The position numbers and the translations under genes are program-made. Below the pieces are notes generated by a model that saw only the letters and a program-made list of their open reading frames with translations, was not told the DNA's origin and searched no databases. From Rhodocyclaceae bacterium (GTDB lineage Bacteria; Pseudomonadota; Gammaproteobacteria; Burkholderiales; Rhodocyclaceae), in NCBI GenBank assembly GCA_030682175.1, contig JAUXOM010000028.1, forward strand, positions 1 to 64,000: a stretch of 64,000 bases of DNA, written 5' to 3'. Positions 35,722-43,532 of this stretch are shown here, in pieces; position 1 is the stretch's first letter; the number at the start of each line of letters is the position of its first letter.

Positions 35722-36181
35722 GTAATCGCTTTCGTTACAAAGCCAACAAAGTCAACGCGACACTGCCCAACGGCCTGACAAGGCGCGAGGCACTGAGCAG
35801 CACATGGCGATGACCAAGCCGGATTTTCGGTTGCCAGGACAATCCATCGATCCACAATTAACCCATTCTTTCAGTATGGTATACGAAAGGCTAAGTTTTG
35901 TTCAGCGAAAGATGCGCGCCTCAAAGTGGCCAGTCAGATTTGGGCTTTGATGGAGATTGAAAACCTGTACCGAGATGATCGTAGTCAGCAGCTTTTAAGA
36001 ATATGGGCCGCAGGAGAGATGTAAGCGTCCATCTACCGCGCAACCCGGCGTGACCGAAAATCTTGCCGATTCACCATTGCTGATGGAGAGCAGCAACGGC
36101 CATTCCCGTCGCGAGAAATATCTTGAATCTCGGCTGGCGCGTATCTACAATGTAGAAACATTTTGGCAAGGAGCTGCAATC

Positions 36182-36424
36182 ATGGAAGCGGTTATTCGAA
36201 AATGGGGCAATAGCCCAGCACTACGTCTGCCGGTTGCCGTCATCAAGGAAGCGGATTTCAATCTTGAGCAAAAGGTCAACATCAGCGTAACCCGGGGGCG
36301 CATTGTGATCGAGCCATCTGACACCGTCGAATACGATCTTGACCAGTTGTTGAGTGGGATCACGGCCACGAACTCTCACAGCGAGGTGAGTTTCGGTAGC
36401 CCGGTCGGTAAGGAAGCGTTTTGA
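36182..36424 (+). CDS. AbrB/MazE-like antitoxin
   Basis: 'MEAVIRKWGNSPALRLPVAVIKEADFNLEQKVNISVTRGRIVIEP' swapped-hairpin AbrB signature. Confidence 0.88.
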   Translation: MEAVIRKWGNSPALRLPVAVIKEADFNLEQKVNISVTRGRIVIEPSDTVEYDLDQLLSGITATNSHSEVSFGSPVGKEAF

Positions 36425-36768
36425 TGGTGGGACGTGGCTATGTTCCCGAGTCTGGAGATGTTGTCTGGCTGGAGTTTGACCCACAAGCCGGTCATGAGCA
36501 GGCTGGCCACCGACCGGCACTTGTCATCAGTCCTGCGAGTTACAACGGCAAGACGGGATTAATGGTTTGCTGCCCGATGAGCACCAAGATCAAGGGGCAT
36601 CCTTTTGAAGTGCTGACCGAGGTGAGCGGCGTGGCGAGTGCAGTGCTGTCCGACCAGGTCAAATCATTGGACTGGAAGGTGCGCCATGCGAAGAAAAAGG
36701 CCACGGTGCCCGCTGACGTGATGATGCACGTTCGCGCCAAAATCAAGGCATTGCTGGTTATCCATTGA
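36424..36768 (+). CDS. MazF/PemK-family endoribonuclease toxin
   Basis: 'YVPESGDVVWLEFDPQAGHEQAGHRPALVISPASYN..GLMVCCPMSTKIKGHPFEV'; start overlaps antitoxin stop (TGATG). Confidence 0.9.
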   Translation: MVGRGYVPESGDVVWLEFDPQAGHEQAGHRPALVISPASYNGKTGLMVCCPMSTKIKGHPFEVLTEVSGVASAVLSDQVKSLDWKVRHAKKKATVPADVMMHVRAKIKALLVIH

Positions 36769-37119: not shown

Positions 37120-38412
37120 TTACGCTCCGCTGCGGTCTTTTGGCTTCACAAGAACCAGATATTGCCGGTGCAATGTCACCAGCACCCAGGCCCAGATGAC
37201 GCAACCCAGCAGGGTCACCCAACCGAGGTCGGCCACGCCCGCCCCGACCAGTGTCCAGTGGCTGAGGGCAATGATGATCAGTGAGCCCAGCGCCTTGAAC
37301 AGGCGGTAGCCGAACATGTCGATCCAGGCCTTGGCCTGGTACATGAGCTGGGGCTCGACGGGGATGTAGAGCAGTTCCTTGGCGGCGCGGTTGATGGAAT
37401 AGGACAGGCCGCGGTCGCTGATCTTCATGATGGCGGCCGTGATGTAGGTCGGCTGGAGCATGAAGCCGCCGGTCGCCAGGGCCAGCGCCACGGGTTGCAC
37501 CAGCAGCCCGGCGAGCACCCCCAGGGTGCCGAGGATCAGGGGGGTGAGCACCAGGTTCACGGCGATCGAGACGCCGCCCATGACGCTGAAGAACAGCGAG
37601 AGCGCGACGGTGCGCGCCTCCCGTTCCGGATAGGCCAGCTCGACGATGCGCAGGAACTGGTATTCCACCAGTGGGGCGATGGCCTGGGCCAGGAGCAGGG
37701 CGAAAGCGATCAGCACCAGATAGCGATTGCCGGCGATCAGGCGCCAGCCGCCCGCCTGCGCCGCCGGAATTGCCGGCGCTGCGTCTTCCCCCGCCCGGCA
37801 CAGCCATCCCCAGCGGTCCATGGCCCAGGTGAGGACGAAGATGAGGCCGACGATGGCGGCGGCCACCAGCATCAGGTCGGGGGTCTGCAAGAATGTATAG
37901 CTGAGCAGCAAGGTCGCCAGGAGACTGCCGAAAACCCCGCCCACCAGCCCGCCGGTGCCGACCAGGCCGTACCAGCGCCGGCCGTCTTGCGTGCGGTAGC
38001 TGCTGTCGGCGAGGCTCCAGAACTGCTCGACCAGCACGACGCCGAAAATGTCCACGAAGATGTAGAAGGCCACCGCCACCCAGGACGCATGCGTGGCGGA
38101 CAGTATCCTGAAGGCGACCAGGGCCCCGGCAAAAAACAGGCAGCTCAGCAGGACGACGCGCACCCGGCCGAACCGTTCAAGGATCTTCCGGTACACTGCG
38201 ATGGCGATCAGCAAGGCGACGGCGGAGCCGATCCAGACATACGGCAGTGACTCGGCACCGTGGGCCTCGATAAGCAAGGAGCGGCTGGCCGGTTTCAGTT
38301 GGTAGAGGGCGGTAATGATGAGGAAGAAATCCAGCAGGAACACCAGCGACCTCAAGAATGCCCCATGAACCTGGCCAAATTTTGGGGAACTTTTTTGCGG
38401 ATTGTCGGTCAT
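37120..38412 (-). CDS. Multi-TM transporter, putative Npt/ATP-ADP translocase-like nucleotide transporter
   Basis: 430-aa polytopic protein; 'GAFLRSLVFLLDFFLIITALYQLKPASRSLLIEAHGAESLPYVWIGSA' and 'SDRGLSYSINRAAKELLYIPVEPQLMYQAKAWIDMFGYRLFKALGS' resemble the translocase-like (TLC/NTT) family. Confidence 0.65.
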   Translation of the reverse strand: MTDNPQKSSPKFGQVHGAFLRSLVFLLDFFLIITALYQLKPASRSLLIEAHGAESLPYVWIGSAVALLIAIAVYRKILERFGRVRVVLLSCLFFAGALVAFRILSATHASWVAVAFYIFVDIFGVVLVEQFWSLADSSYRTQDGRRWYGLVGTGGLVGGVFGSLLATLLLSYTFLQTPDLMLVAAAIVGLIFVLTWAMDRWGWLCRAGEDAAPAIPAAQAGGWRLIAGNRYLVLIAFALLLAQAIAPLVEYQFLRIVELAYPEREARTVALSLFFSVMGGVSIAVNLVLTPLILGTLGVLAGLLVQPVALALATGGFMLQPTYITAAIMKISDRGLSYSINRAAKELLYIPVEPQLMYQAKAWIDMFGYRLFKALGSLIIIALSHWTLVGAGVADLGWVTLLGCVIWAWVLVTLHRQYLVLVKPKDRSGA

Positions 38413-38418
38413 AGTCGG

Positions 38419-40629
38419 CTATTTGCCTTGTGGGGAACGAGGATATTCGAGCCTCGTCCCAATCGATTTTTCCGGGGTCACGTCAGACGCCAGCAACCCG
38501 CCAGGAGGCCAGAAAGTTTGTTCTTTAAAAGACTGATCCTCAGCTTTACCCTGATCCTGACTTCGATATCCATTCACGCCGGCCAGTCCTTCCCGGCGCT
38601 CGAACGTTCCTTCGATGATCGTCTGCAATCCCAGCTTGAAGTCAGGCTGGAATCGCTCGGCCTTGCCGCGGCGGTGCGCGAACGCCGCCTGTCGGTGGCC
38701 CTGGTCGACATCACCGCGCCCGACCGCCCCCGCTTTGCCGCCCTCAATCCCGATCACATGGCCTATGCCGCGAGCCTGCCCAAGATCGCCATCCTGCTCG
38801 GGGCCTTCGCCCGCATCGAGGCCGGCGACATGCAGCTCGACGCGCCCACCCGCGACACCCTGACCCGGATGATCCGCGTTTCCTCCAACACCGCCGCCAG
38901 CGAGATGCTGGAGCGGGTCGGCATGCGCTACCTGGCCGGACTGCTGCAGTCGCCCCGCTACCGCCTGTACGACCCCGAGCGCAACGGCGGCCTCTGGGTG
39001 GGCCGGCCCTACGGCAAGGGCGGCGACACCCTGCGCGACCCCCTGCACAATCTTTCGCACGGGGCGACGGCCCTGCAGGTGGCCCGCTTCTACTACCTGC
39101 TGGAGACCGGGCGGCTCACTTCGCCCCAGCTGACCGGCGAGATGAAGGCCATCCTCGGCAATCCCGGCATTCACCACAAGTTCGTCAAGGGCCTGGAGGC
39201 CGAACGCCCGGGTTCGAAAATCTTCCGCAAATCCGGCAGCTGGCAGAACTGGCATGCCGACAGCGCCATCGTCGAACGCGACGGCCGCCGCTACATCGCC
39301 GTGGCCTTGGCGGAGGACCCCCAGGGCGGCGAGTGGCTGCGCCGCCTGATCGTCGGGATGGACAAGGCCGTGTTCGACACCGCCCCGCGCAGCCTGGTGG
39401 CGCTTCTCCAATAGCCGTTGCAGGCGGGTGCCCAGGGTCTGGTGGGCGACCGCCGAGTTCACCCGCAGCACGTTCGAGTTGATCACCACCAGGTAATGCA
39501 GCCGGCGCTGGCCCGCCGGGTGCTCGACGATGGCCACCGAGTTCAGCAGGTTTTCCACGTTGCCCTGGTATTTTCGGCAGACGAAGTCCGGCTCCGGCTG
39601 ACAGCGGAATAGGGAACCGGATTTGAAATACACGGCGGCGTCGTCGAGGGCGGGCGAGGAAGCGTAGCGGATGCGGCGCTGGGTCATGTACAGCAGGCGC
39701 TTGATCTCCCGGCTGGACCAGGCATCGACAATCCGCCCTTCCTCCAGCGCCAGCAGCCAGCGCATCAGTTCCCGTGGCGTCGCCCAACTGCCGCTCCCCG
39801 GCACGCGGGCCTTGCCGGTTTGCGTAAAAAAACCGCCCTGCTGCAGGGCCTGCGGATCCAGGCCATTGCGCGCAATACCGCCCTGCAGCGCCCGCCCCAG
39901 CCGTGCCGCGAGCTCTGCCCTGGAGTGGGTGCGGAAAAAGGCGTCGATCCGCGCCTGGTCCAGCGGGTAAGCGCGGCCCGCACCGGCCAGCAGCAGGGTT
40001 TCGCGCAGGACCATGGAGGCGGCGGCGTTGGAACTCGCCGACAGCATCCAGTCGAGGTAAGTCCACAAGCTCGCCGCATCGCCCTGGCGCAGGGGGCGGT
40101 GGGCAAGGCGGCTGCCGTCCCAGAAGGGGACGGCGTGGCTGTCGGAAACGATGAAACTGTCGGCGACCACCTGCGTTTCGCGCAGGATCCGTTCGCGGGC
40201 GGCGATGTCGTCGGGATAAAGATCGGCAAGCTGCTGGAACAGGGCCGTGGCCACCACCAGCTTGCCGACGCTGCCTGGATTGAAGCGGGCCGCGGCGCGG
40301 TGCTCCGCATAAACCGGCCGCGCCGGGTCGCTGAGGTCCAGCACGGCCACGGCATAGCGATCGGCCTCCGCACCCAGCAGATCCGTCAGCTGGCGGCTGA
40401 ATTCCGCGTCGGGCGCCGGCAGCGCCAGCTTGCTGCCGACGCGCCGCAGCTCGACCTGATGCAGTGCCAGCTGCCCGCCCGGCGGCTGCACCCGGCCACT
40501 GGCCTTGTTCCCTTGTGCCAGACGGTAGCCTTCGAGGCGGGCAATGCCGGTGTAGTTCAGGCCATCCAGCGGATAGGCGCGGGCCAGGCCGGGCAGCAGC
40601 AGGAACAGCAGAAACAGGGCGCGCATCAC
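38419..40629 (-). CDS. Secreted serine hydrolase / penicillin-binding-like; reading frame continues antisense through the convergent hydrolase gene
   Basis: Signal peptide 'MMRALFLLFLLLPGLARA', SxxK 'NPGSVGKLVV', 'SASSNAAASMV', KSG 'AVYFKSGSLFRC'; recognisable domain ends ~39380, then the frame reads antisense to 38518-39414. Confidence 0.65.
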   Translation of the reverse strand: MMRALFLLFLLLPGLARAYPLDGLNYTGIARLEGYRLAQGNKASGRVQPPGGQLALHQVELRRVGSKLALPAPDAEFSRQLTDLLGAEADRYAVAVLDLSDPARPVYAEHRAAARFNPGSVGKLVVATALFQQLADLYPDDIAARERILRETQVVADSFIVSDSHAVPFWDGSRLAHRPLRQGDAASLWTYLDWMLSASSNAAASMVLRETLLLAGAGRAYPLDQARIDAFFRTHSRAELAARLGRALQGGIARNGLDPQALQQGGFFTQTGKARVPGSGSWATPRELMRWLLALEEGRIVDAWSSREIKRLLYMTQRRIRYASSPALDDAAVYFKSGSLFRCQPEPDFVCRKYQGNVENLLNSVAIVEHPAGQRRLHYLVVINSNVLRVNSAVAHQTLGTRLQRLLEKRHQAARGGVEHGLVHPDDQAAQPLAALGVLRQGHGDVAAAVAFDDGAVGMPVLPAAGFAEDFRTRAFGLQALDELVVNAGIAEDGLHLAGQLGRSEPPGLQQVVEAGHLQGRRPVRKIVQGVAQGVAALAVGPAHPEAAVALGVVQAVAGRLQQSGQVAHADPLQHLAGGGVGGNADHPGQGVAGGRVELHVAGLDAGEGPEQDGDLGQARGIGHVIGIEGGKAGAVGRGDVDQGHRQAAFAHRRGKAERFQPDFKLGLQTIIEGTFERREGLAGVNGYRSQDQGKAEDQSFKEQTFWPPGGLLASDVTPEKSIGTRLEYPRSPQGK
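38518..39414 (+). CDS. Secreted serine hydrolase, class A beta-lactamase-like
   Basis: TTG start 9 nt after AGGAGG, signal peptide 'FFKRLILSFTLILTSISIHA', SxxK 'ASLPKIAIL', SxN 'RVSSNTAAS', KSG 'FRKSGSWQNWHADSAIV'. Confidence 0.75.
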   Translation: MFFKRLILSFTLILTSISIHAGQSFPALERSFDDRLQSQLEVRLESLGLAAAVRERRLSVALVDITAPDRPRFAALNPDHMAYAASLPKIAILLGAFARIEAGDMQLDAPTRDTLTRMIRVSSNTAASEMLERVGMRYLAGLLQSPRYRLYDPERNGGLWVGRPYGKGGDTLRDPLHNLSHGATALQVARFYYLLETGRLTSPQLTGEMKAILGNPGIHHKFVKGLEAERPGSKIFRKSGSWQNWHADSAIVERDGRRYIAVALAEDPQGGEWLRRLIVGMDKAVFDTAPRSLVALLQ

Positions 40630-43532
40630 GGTGTCTCCCGCAGCATGATGCTGCGCCCCGTCTGGGCGCGCAGCGGCGCATCCAGTTCAAGCAGAAAACG
40701 GTCGCGGCGCGCCTGCCGGCTCTGCAGATAGGGGCGAATCTGGAACAGCGCAAGGCGCCCCGCCACGAAGCCGAATTCCACGTCCGCCGGGACGACCTGC
40801 CCGCTCTCGTCACGCTGGGGAAAACGCTCCGGCAGTTCCCGGCCCAGTCGCCGCAACTGTTCGATTTCGGCCGGCGTCAGCACCGGCTGACCCGAAACCG
40901 GCTGGCTCTCGAGACCGCCAGCGGTGCCCAGGATGCGCCGGGTAGCGGCGCTGGCCTCGGCGAGCAGCCGCACCTCGCCGGTTGCGGCGACGATGAGGAG
41001 TTCCTCCGCGGCCTGCCCGGAAACAGCCCCGCTCACGCCCTCGTTCGCCGCCACCGTGTAGCCGGCGGAACTGCCGCTCTCCAGGTCGAGGGTCACCATC
41101 ACCCCCGACTTGTCCACCGGCACCGCGCGCTGCAGCAGAACCGAAACATAGACGTGCTCGGGAGCGTCCATGCGCATCTGCCGCCAGGCGAAGGCGCGTT
41201 CCGCGAAGGGCGAGGCCCACACGCGCAGGATCGCCGCAACCACGTCGTCCAGGCCCACCACATTCGGCACGGTGAGGTTGAGCCCCGCCCCGCTGAAGCC
41301 GGGCAAATCCTCCACATTGGTGTCGCTGCGCACAAAGACGGCATAGCTGCCGTCCGGACCGAAACGCTCCTGCATGGCACGAGCGAGGGCCGCGCGGAAT
41401 TGTGTCCCGACATCGGCCGTGCCGATCCAGCTCCGCAGCCGTTCCAAGAGCCGCCGGGCTTCGGGCTCCCGCTGCGCGACAGGCAGGCCGTCGATGCGGC
41501 GATACTCGGCGCGCAGCCACGCATGGGCGCTCATTCCCGTTCCCGGCAGGGCGTGTTCGAGGAAGGCGCGGAAGGCGCCGAAGGGAATGACCAGGCCGTC
41601 GGCCACCGCCGCCGGGTAGTGGTGCTTCAGTTCGCCCAGCCGTGCCGCCTTCGGCCCGGCGATGCGTCCGGCGTCGTCCGCCCGCAGCTCGCCGAGCAGA
41701 ATCGGATCGCGCCGCGCGAGGTCCAGCTTGGCGAGATTCGGGTGAATGCGCTCCGCTGGCCGCTCGGCGTGGCCAAAGACAGCCTCCCAGCGCGGGCCGT
41801 CCGCGGCGATCAGCACCCGCCCGCCCGGGCTCACGGCCATGACGATGGGCCGCCCCGCCATCGCCCGCAGGCGCGGCACCAGCCCGGCATCCACCACCAC
41901 GTTGGGGATGCCCAGGTTGCTGGCGAGCAGTTGCACATGGGAAAGGATGTTGCCGGCCTCCAGAGTGAGGATGCCGGCCACGGGCGGGAGGCTCTCTGTC
42001 GTTTCGCGCAGCAGATAGATGCCGTCCGGACGGGGAGCGGTGGCATCCAGACGCAGGATGCCCCGGGCCAGGCCCGGATTGAGGGCGCGCAACCCCGCCC
42101 CAACTGATTGGCCAAAAATCTCGTGCTCGATCCCGGCGAGGCTGTTGGCCTCCTGCAGCAGACCGTCCAGCAAGGCCGAATAGACCAGCAGCGGACTTGC
42201 CCGCAGGCGGTCGGGTATGAACTGGGATGCCAGAGGTTCGATGCGGGCGAGCCCCGTCACCGCAGCGGCAAAGTGGAAGGCCAACTCGCGCCCGGCCCAG
42301 GCGGGCACCCGCGCCAGATAGCCGAGTTCCGCGCGGTAACGCTCCAGGGGCAGGCTCGGCACCGCCAGGCGGTCGAGCGCCTCGCGCGTCGCCTGACGCT
42401 CCCGGGCGGTGAGCAGCCCCACGCCGTACAGGGCCTCGGCGGCGCTGCCCAGCACGGCGAGCCGCTCGGCCGGGCGCGCCCGCGACAGGTCGCCCTGCAA
42501 GCCGCGGCCGCTGGCGAAGGCCGTGGCCTCGACATCCAGACTGAGCCGGAGCGCCGCCACGCGCAGCTTTTGCGGGAGTTCCGGCAGGGCCGCGCGCAAT
42601 TCAGCCAGGAATGCCGCGCTGGCGGCGAAGCGCTGCGCGGGCGATAGTGTGACCTCAAGCTCGAGGGCAAAGCGGCGCAACTGGCCGGCAAATGGATGCT
42701 TGTCGAGGCGCCCGGCCAGTTCATTCAGTGGCTGCTTCAGGTCGCGGATGGCGAAGAGCGCTTCGATGGCCTGGGCGAGTTGCTCGAACTCGGGCTCGCT
42801 GCGCCCTTGCTGGCGGGCATAGGCCCGCACCCGCCCGGCGTCGGCGGCATCCGGCTGCGAGTGGAGCTTGTTGCGCAGCGACGCGAAGCCGGCATCCAGA
42901 GTGGCGAGGCTGGAGGAAAGTTCGTGGGAGCGCGTCACCGTCGCGCCATTGCGTGCCAGCGGCAGCAGCAGCGCCGCCTGGCGCAGCAGCAGAAAGTCCC
43001 GCTCCCCTTGCTGGCGGGCGGCCAAAGCGGCCAGAATCGCCTCTGCGGCCGCAATCTCGTCCTCCACCTGGAAGGCCCCCCGGTAGTAGCGCGCCCGGCG
43101 CAGGATCCAGCCGTTGTCCGCCGCAACCAGATAACGCTCCAGCAGGATGGCCTTCAGCGCCGCTTGTCCCGGCGTGGCGGCCAGGGCCTCGGGATCGGTG
43201 GCGGCCAGCACATTGCCCACCAGGAAACCGGCTTCCTCGAGCGCGCGGGCGCGTTCGCCGAGCCTGCCGTGCTGGATGCCGCCGCCACGGGGCGCGCAGG
43301 CATAGGGTCCGGGGGGCAGCACCGCACCATCCTTGCAGAACCAGTAGATCCCGTCGAAGGGGCCCCGGGGGTCGGTCTTCATCCCGGCGAGCCAACGAGC
43401 CATCTCTGCGGTGTCGGGGGGCGCGTCGGCTGCAGCGAGAGGCGCCCACGCGAGGAAGAGGGCAGTCAACAGTCCCCCTGTCGCGGCAAGGATTGCGCGG
43501 GGAAAGGTAGCGGTGCGTCTTTCGTGCTTCAT
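40626..43532 (-). CDS. Signal-peptide-bearing dikinase-like protein (phosphohistidine swivel plus PPDK/PEP-synthase ATP-grasp domain)
   Basis: 'PPVAGILTLEAGNILSHVQLLASNLGIPNVVV' swivel with candidate His532; 'GPKAARLGELKHHYPAAVADGLVIPFGAFRAFL', 'SYAVFVRSDTNVEDLPGFSGAGLNLTVPNV', 'VEFGFVAGRLALFQIRPY' ATP-grasp; N-terminal 'AILAATGGLLTALFLAWAPLAAADA'. Confidence 0.75.
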   Translation of the reverse strand: MKHERRTATFPRAILAATGGLLTALFLAWAPLAAADAPPDTAEMARWLAGMKTDPRGPFDGIYWFCKDGAVLPPGPYACAPRGGGIQHGRLGERARALEEAGFLVGNVLAATDPEALAATPGQAALKAILLERYLVAADNGWILRRARYYRGAFQVEDEIAAAEAILAALAARQQGERDFLLLRQAALLLPLARNGATVTRSHELSSSLATLDAGFASLRNKLHSQPDAADAGRVRAYARQQGRSEPEFEQLAQAIEALFAIRDLKQPLNELAGRLDKHPFAGQLRRFALELEVTLSPAQRFAASAAFLAELRAALPELPQKLRVAALRLSLDVEATAFASGRGLQGDLSRARPAERLAVLGSAAEALYGVGLLTARERQATREALDRLAVPSLPLERYRAELGYLARVPAWAGRELAFHFAAAVTGLARIEPLASQFIPDRLRASPLLVYSALLDGLLQEANSLAGIEHEIFGQSVGAGLRALNPGLARGILRLDATAPRPDGIYLLRETTESLPPVAGILTLEAGNILSHVQLLASNLGIPNVVVDAGLVPRLRAMAGRPIVMAVSPGGRVLIAADGPRWEAVFGHAERPAERIHPNLAKLDLARRDPILLGELRADDAGRIAGPKAARLGELKHHYPAAVADGLVIPFGAFRAFLEHALPGTGMSAHAWLRAEYRRIDGLPVAQREPEARRLLERLRSWIGTADVGTQFRAALARAMQERFGPDGSYAVFVRSDTNVEDLPGFSGAGLNLTVPNVVGLDDVVAAILRVWASPFAERAFAWRQMRMDAPEHVYVSVLLQRAVPVDKSGVMVTLDLESGSSAGYTVAANEGVSGAVSGQAAEELLIVAATGEVRLLAEASAATRRILGTAGGLESQPVSGQPVLTPAEIEQLRRLGRELPERFPQRDESGQVVPADVEFGFVAGRLALFQIRPYLQSRQARRDRFLLELDAPLRAQTGRSIMLRETP

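Follow-up and report, generated by a model that had tools for sequence, protein, structure and literature searches.

A four-gene locus in a 64,000-nucleotide (nt) stretch of DNA from a Rhodocyclaceae bacterium (the window) raises the question of whether a bacterial cell feeds ATP to its envelope and, if so, what is phosphorylated there. Contig C144 of a 3.5-Mb metagenome-assembled genome (MAG) contains the window, and the locus encodes a transporter of the TLC (ATP/ADP translocase) family, two serine hydrolases (hydrolase 2 and hydrolase 1, in that order) and a dikinase of the phosphoenolpyruvate (PEP) synthase superfamily. The periplasm is taught as ATP-free, and to our knowledge no dedicated ATP-fed periplasmic phosphotransfer enzyme of this superfamily is known. 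An initial annotation, whose coordinates and open reading frames (ORFs) were confirmed, had proposed that the transporter supplies nucleotide to the periplasm and that the dikinase phosphorylates an envelope glycan acted on by the hydrolases. Comparison of sequences across relatives shows that the four genes form a real, conserved module that is inherited together. The most likely reading, an extracytoplasmic ATP-driven phosphotransfer module acting on an envelope acceptor (perhaps peptidoglycan) and fed by the transporter, stands at about even odds.

Judged by its domain matches, the 968-amino-acid (aa) product of positions 40626..43532 (minus strand) is a dikinase of the PPDK/PEP synthase family in which the swivel domain precedes a C-terminal ATP-grasp. 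Pfam places the PPDK_N ATP-grasp (PF01326) at residues 624-941 (E 1.4e-32, 113.8 bits versus a curated cut-off of 27), behind a weak swivel match (PF00391, residues 510-546, E 0.006). An AlphaFold2 model built with 67 homologues as input (pLDDT 88, pTM 0.85) consists of a signal helix, a small mixed domain (~40-100), an all-helical region to ~470, an alpha/beta swivel-like domain (481-590) and the ATP-grasp (600-940). Together with alignment and hydropathy, these results divide the protein into a signal peptide (about 1-36), a new N-terminal domain (about 40-230), a helical middle (about 230-470), the swivel (481-590) and the ATP-grasp (about 600-940). The domain order of the initial annotation is borne out by both methods. 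Its statement that no PEP/pyruvate barrel is evident also stands, as Pfam gave no PEP-utilizers_C match and the model contains no barrel. In Foldseek searches of the PDB, the dikinase matched rifampin phosphotransferase (RPH), PEP synthase, HpeI and PPDK, the top matches covering ~340 columns, the size of the ATP-grasp; RPH (5hv1, E 6e-14) was the best solved match of this domain, and HpeI (9goj) was also matched. The best matches in a viral structure library were only ATP-grasp-type proteins. The NCBIfam models align over the ATP-grasp, all far under their cut-offs (104 versus 883 and 82 versus 740 bits for PEP synthase/PPDK, 91 versus 999 for RPH). The same genome encodes four more PPDK_N proteins (frames of 876-1076 aa), at C43:3795-4811, C114:3402-4475, C93:51439-52290 and C144:96669-97592.

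His532, K628, R735, D737, E741, D742, D917, E919, Q931 and R933 are invariant in 67/67 homologues. K628 and His532 match the ATP-grasp lysine (Lys22) and the swivel histidine (His825) described for the PPDK/RPH family (PMC4844700). We take the others to be the ATP-grasp arginine and metal ligands of PPDK/RPH. The N-terminal domain has invariant cysteines C66 and C79, the motif WFCxDG...HGGGxQHG and further residues invariant among the 67 homologues (W64, Q87, E132, W142, R151, H224 and D231), which are candidates for an acceptor site. One gammaproteobacterial homologue, L061, has lost both the swivel histidine and the RSDTN motif of the ATP-grasp and is probably a decayed or noncatalytic copy.

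A signal peptide on the dikinase, as initially annotated, is supported by a simple hydropathy test of the N terminus: a signal-peptide-like hydrophobic stretch followed by an AxA-like site is found here and in 66 of the 67 homologues, versus a comparable signal in 1 of 19 ordinary PPDK_N control proteins. The same test detected export signals in all 31 hydrolase 2 sequences and in all 44 hydrolase 1 sequences at a cut of 1.6 (42 at 1.8). By this sequence evidence, export signals are present on the dikinase as well as on each hydrolase, and the invariant cysteine pairs of the dikinase (C66/C79) and hydrolase 1 (C343/C351) fit an oxidizing periplasm.

Conservation of the neighborhood, named in the initial annotation as a check and called decisive here, was found among relatives. 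A scan of genome contigs recovered at least 518 dikinase relatives, and locus counts were drawn from the best 80 loci, with denominators restricted to loci with enough sequence (65 for hydrolase 1, 59 for hydrolase 2, and 52 for the transporter and the full order). Depositors' labels assign the best 80 loci to Beta-, Gamma-, Zeta- and some Alphaproteobacteria, Desulfobacterales/Desulfuromonas, and MAGs labeled Myxococcales and Nitrospirae. Hydrolase 1 is the next gene directly downstream of the dikinase on the same strand in 56/65 loci, hydrolase 2 lies within the locus in 46/59 (convergent in 39), and a TLC-type transporter is present in 40/52; the exact four-gene order of the window recurs in 20/52. 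No fifth conserved neighbor family was found among the dikinase loci. Pairwise comparison of the distance matrices for the four proteins gave correlations of r 0.65-0.84, with none of 2,000 permutations as high, as is expected of co-inheritance but also of shared species history. The transporter slot is filled by other TLC relatives in four loci (L078, L099, L113 and L142) and is therefore linked to the module but replaceable. Proteins seen at or near this position include a TLC-like membrane protein with HEAT repeats (L078:1245-3500), a 1053-aa membrane protein with a cyclic-nucleotide-binding domain (L081:6684-9842) and, beside a TLC-like protein, membrane Ser/Thr protein kinases with Cache/PDC-type sensor domains (L142:4482-6620 and L083:5030-7174). 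A long TPR lipoprotein-like gene stands between the dikinase and hydrolase 1 in two loci (L090:13067-16620 and L094:13301-16012), accompanied in L090 by a PEP-CTERM gene. The exosortase/PEP-CTERM link suggested by these two loci was rejected after a search of 399 genomes, where a single, weak exosortase match was obtained among dikinase-positive members of the dominant genus described below.

These 399 genomes are an even sample of the phylum, searched with the N-terminal half and swivel of the dikinase as the query (E<1e-40). The dikinase was detected in 24 genomes and hydrolase 1 in 23, all of them dikinase positive (Fisher P of about 2e-36, a value that overstates independence because only five genera are involved and most genomes belong to one). 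The only dikinase-positive genome without hydrolase 1 (G278) is the carrier of the decayed homologue L061, and it also lacks hydrolase 2. Of the 45 genomes scanned for hydrolase 2, 24 have it; all 24 are dikinase positive, and none of the dikinase-negative genomes among the 45 has a copy. Several genomes of the dominant genus have two copies, flanking the transporter. In two members of this genus (G080 and G256), the dikinase and both hydrolases are missing at once, and sister genera of the same family do not carry the module. Transporter orthologues (E<1e-100) occur in 11 genomes, all dikinase positive; remote TLC paralogues are widespread, and a diverged TLC gene adjoins the dikinase in G133 and G208. 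A search of 72,556 plasmids gave no match, and no PADLOC antiphage defense family was matched at E values up to 0.01.

Both hydrolases belong to the PF13354 (Beta-lactamase2) serine hydrolases by Pfam, in agreement with their initial annotation as SxxK enzymes. Hydrolase 1 (about 412 aa, 39391..40629, minus strand) has the motifs S120xxK123, S199-S-N201 and K336-S-G338, and hydrolase 2 (about 298 aa, 38518..39414, plus strand) has S86xPK89, S122-S-N124 and K238-S-G240. These motifs are kept in every sequence of both families, save one SxN variant, and the alignments show that both hydrolases keep complete serine-hydrolase active sites. The hydrolase 1 model is a class A beta-lactamase/PBP-A domain (pLDDT 91.6) whose best Foldseek match is PBP-A (2j7v), at only 11-12% identity; the best PDB match of the hydrolase 2 profile is also PBP-A, weakly (E 0.007). 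PBP-A of Thermosynechococcus elongatus is a DD-carboxypeptidase/endopeptidase acting on peptidoglycan (PMC11189452). The two hydrolases are therefore PBP-A-like by fold and profile similarity, and their DD-peptidase activity is putative.

The initial annotation had described the dikinase as convergent with the second hydrolase; it is the two hydrolase genes that run toward each other, and hydrolase 2 is divergent from the transporter gene. The overlap of the dikinase with hydrolase 1 had been given as ATGA. The letters in the window are GTGATG, allowing a GTG start at 40629, which retains a 4-nt overlap, or an ATG start at 40626 with a 1-nt overlap. A 4-nt overlap occurs in just over half of the loci, and it reads ATGA in 29 of the 33 checked. 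The hydrolase 1 ORF as called is 736 aa, but the real protein is about 412 aa and ends at about 39391. Beyond this point, the frame runs without a stop for ~320 codons (38419-39390), antisense across all of hydrolase 2, and ends 6 bases short of the transporter start. L064 and L066 have similar read-through frames, and the frame in L067 is overlong. The antisense tail is probably a passenger, as it is less conserved than the body of the frame (0.68 versus 0.82 in L066). Hydrolase 2 probably starts at TTG 38518, with GGAGG about 10 nt upstream, rather than at the GTG of the ORF (38260).

The 430-aa transporter (37120..38412, minus strand) is, from its Pfam match to PF03219 (E 1.5e-15, 57.4 bits versus a cut-off of 21), a distant but clear TLC member, consistent with the earlier comparison to ATP/ADP translocases; an unrelated MFS family was not indicated. 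Similarity to TLC translocases is distant (phmmer E 1.7e-8), with the KE..YIP and KAxID signature region retained, and invariant charged residues are unusually many (K40, R44, D121, E129, K330, R342, E346, K361, D365 and K373). The score with the NTP/NDP-exchanger model TIGR00769 is far under the cut-off (39.8 versus 387 bits), so that nucleotide transport is suggested at the level of the family.

In superfamily chemistry, a phosphate passes from ATP to a phosphohistidine and then to the acceptor, with release of AMP and Pi. This chemistry, combined with the export signals, implies a need for nucleotide in the periplasm, and the TLC family is known for ATP/ADP exchange. The transporter would move adenine nucleotide across the inner membrane, with ATP going out and AMP or ADP returning. 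In the periplasm, the ATP-grasp would donate phosphate from ATP to His532, converting ATP to AMP and Pi as in PEP synthase, RPH and HpeHI, and the swivel would then turn to the new N-terminal domain and phosphorylate the acceptor bound there. That the dikinase passes phosphate from ATP to something extracytoplasmic is at even odds or slightly favored. Peptidoglycan, or a muropeptide (at a hydroxyl of MurNAc/GlcNAc or at the stem), is the best guess for the acceptor because the two partner hydrolases are PBP-A-like, although by itself this guess is more probably wrong than right by a wide measure. Phosphorylation may then prime or mark material for trimming or release by the hydrolases, much as GWD phosphorylation opens the starch granule to attack by hydrolytic enzymes. 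The full proposal, a widespread and previously undescribed system in which a dedicated translocase exports ATP to drive a secreted dikinase that acts, in concert with two dedicated hydrolases, on an envelope polymer (peptidoglycan or another) by phosphorylating it, is tentative and somewhat doubtful as a whole.

Several points weigh against this proposal. Of the initial hypothesis, the export signal, the TLC transporter and the conserved neighborhood stood, while we infer the periplasmic ATP, the nature of the acceptor, including a glycan, and the direction of transport. TLC members also carry other nucleotides or NAD, or are uncharacterized. The export calls come from hydropathy and not from SignalP. 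The N-terminal half of the dikinase has no solved relative by Foldseek against the PDB and no named relative in Pfam, which also detected no glycan-binding domain. Most of the genomes with co-occurrence are from one genus (Mariprofundus-like, judged from L132 and L133), and ~10 dikinase-positive genomes within it lack a clustered transporter orthologue; the transporter is thus not an absolute requirement, unless a TLC paralogue takes over its role. None of the contrary findings named in the initial annotation (a missing signal peptide, a cryptic PEP-binding barrel, a transporter of an unrelated MFS family and an unconserved neighborhood) was made.

Other explanations share parts of this evidence. 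The ATP-grasp is nearest those of RPH, PEP synthase and HpeI, and the hydrolases share the fold of class A beta-lactamases, as would be expected if the dikinase were of the RPH/HpeHI type and acted in the periplasm to inactivate or trap an incoming small molecule (antibiotic or phenolic), with the hydrolases attacking related compounds. However, Foldseek detected no resemblance of the N-terminal domain to the RIF-binding domain, no resistance or defense family was matched beyond sub-cut-off similarity to PEP synthase and RPH, and the very broad spread and invariant N-terminal residues suggest one common cellular substrate; this explanation is unlikely. It is quite improbable that the enzyme is an ATP-dependent ligase, whose phospho-swivel would activate a substrate for condensation, as in PigC and RedH, while the hydrolases edit or hydrolyze the product: the ATP-grasp is weakly similar to both proteins, but the similarity is confined to this shared domain and is weaker than that to PEP synthase and RPH.

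The system might also run in reverse: AMP and a phosphorylated compound would give periplasmic ATP, and the transporter would import it for nucleotide or phosphate scavenging. PPDK is reversible, TLC transporters are able to import ATP and the transporter is of this type, but PEP-synthase-like (water) dikinases strongly favor AMP and Pi, and two PBP-A-type hydrolases would be left unexplained, which makes this reading a very slim prospect. Scarcely more probable is a sensory or signaling role, with the transporter-like protein acting as a receptor and phosphotransfer as a regulatory step. Some loci do pair the dikinase with HEAT-repeat TLC-like proteins, a cNMP-binding-domain protein or Cache-domain Ser/Thr kinases, and L061 lacks catalytic residues, but in most cases the transporter is a plain protein of 430 aa, and apart from this copy the catalytic residues do not vary. 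The reading as an ordinary PEP synthase or PPDK, misplaced through a start-site error and lying beside unrelated genes, agrees with the families matched in Pfam and NCBIfam and was rejected as having almost no chance of being correct, given the absent barrel, reversed order, NCBIfam scores far under the cut-offs, conserved signal peptide and conserved module.

Beyond the module itself, a probable MazE/MazF-like toxin-antitoxin pair, called by eye, adjoins it at positions 36050-36768. The short repeat GTGACCGAAGGGAATCCC occurs, with its flanks, three times in the window (35229, 37049 and 43729); one copy lies inside a PAS sensor-kinase ORF (as ...GVTEGNPFFGTG...), and the other two are intergenic.

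Co-inheritance of an exported dikinase with an ATP/ADP-type transporter makes a supply of ATP to the envelope, and the identity of the phosphorylated material, directly testable. The gene set occurs in many environmental bacteria and, if the phosphotransfer reading is true, points to a function for two uncharacterized serine hydrolase families and for a TLC branch in free-living bacteria. No published description of the module was found in the open papers searched; each enzyme represents a new architecture or a new branch within a superfamily already known, and it is the combination and the compartment that appear undescribed there.

Among known systems, the plant glucan and phosphoglucan water dikinases (GWD and PWD) share the order of substrate part, swivel histidine and C-terminal ATP-grasp, and presumably the conversion of ATP to AMP and Pi on a polymer. 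The GWD swivel histidine is His992 (PMC12892837). Unlike GWD and PWD, the dikinase is a bacterial protein predicted to be secreted, its N-terminal half is unrelated, and among solved structures its ATP-grasp most resembles those of PEP synthase and RPH. Pfam matched no starch-binding CBM family in it, and the GWD-type phosphohistidine domain (GWD1_pHisD, PF22973) was matched in 1 of 21 members, at E 0.03 only. The initial label "GWD-like" is therefore restricted to domain order, and membership is not claimed because the same order is obtained from HpeH followed by HpeI. RPH provides the best solved match of the ATP-grasp but has the order ATP-grasp, RIF-binding domain and swivel and is not described as secreted, and PEP synthase and PPDK share the ATP-grasp and swivel families, whereas here the order is reversed, the barrel is absent and a signal peptide is present. 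The hydrolases resemble PBP-A in their SxxK, SxN and KSG motifs and in their best fold (hydrolase 1) or weak profile (hydrolase 2) match. The transporter shares PF03219 and the signature region with the chlamydial Npt1-type and plastid NTT1 translocases but is distant from them and has 430 aa. The two-component phenolic dikinases HpeHI, CreHI and PpsAB (phenylphosphate synthase) combine a swivel-bearing component with a separate ATP-grasp, and in the phenol dikinase the concatenated order of HpeH (swivel) and HpeI (ATP-grasp) matches that of the dikinase (PMC12167813); here the two parts are fused in a putatively secreted protein, with another substrate domain, and are paired with hydrolases and a transporter.

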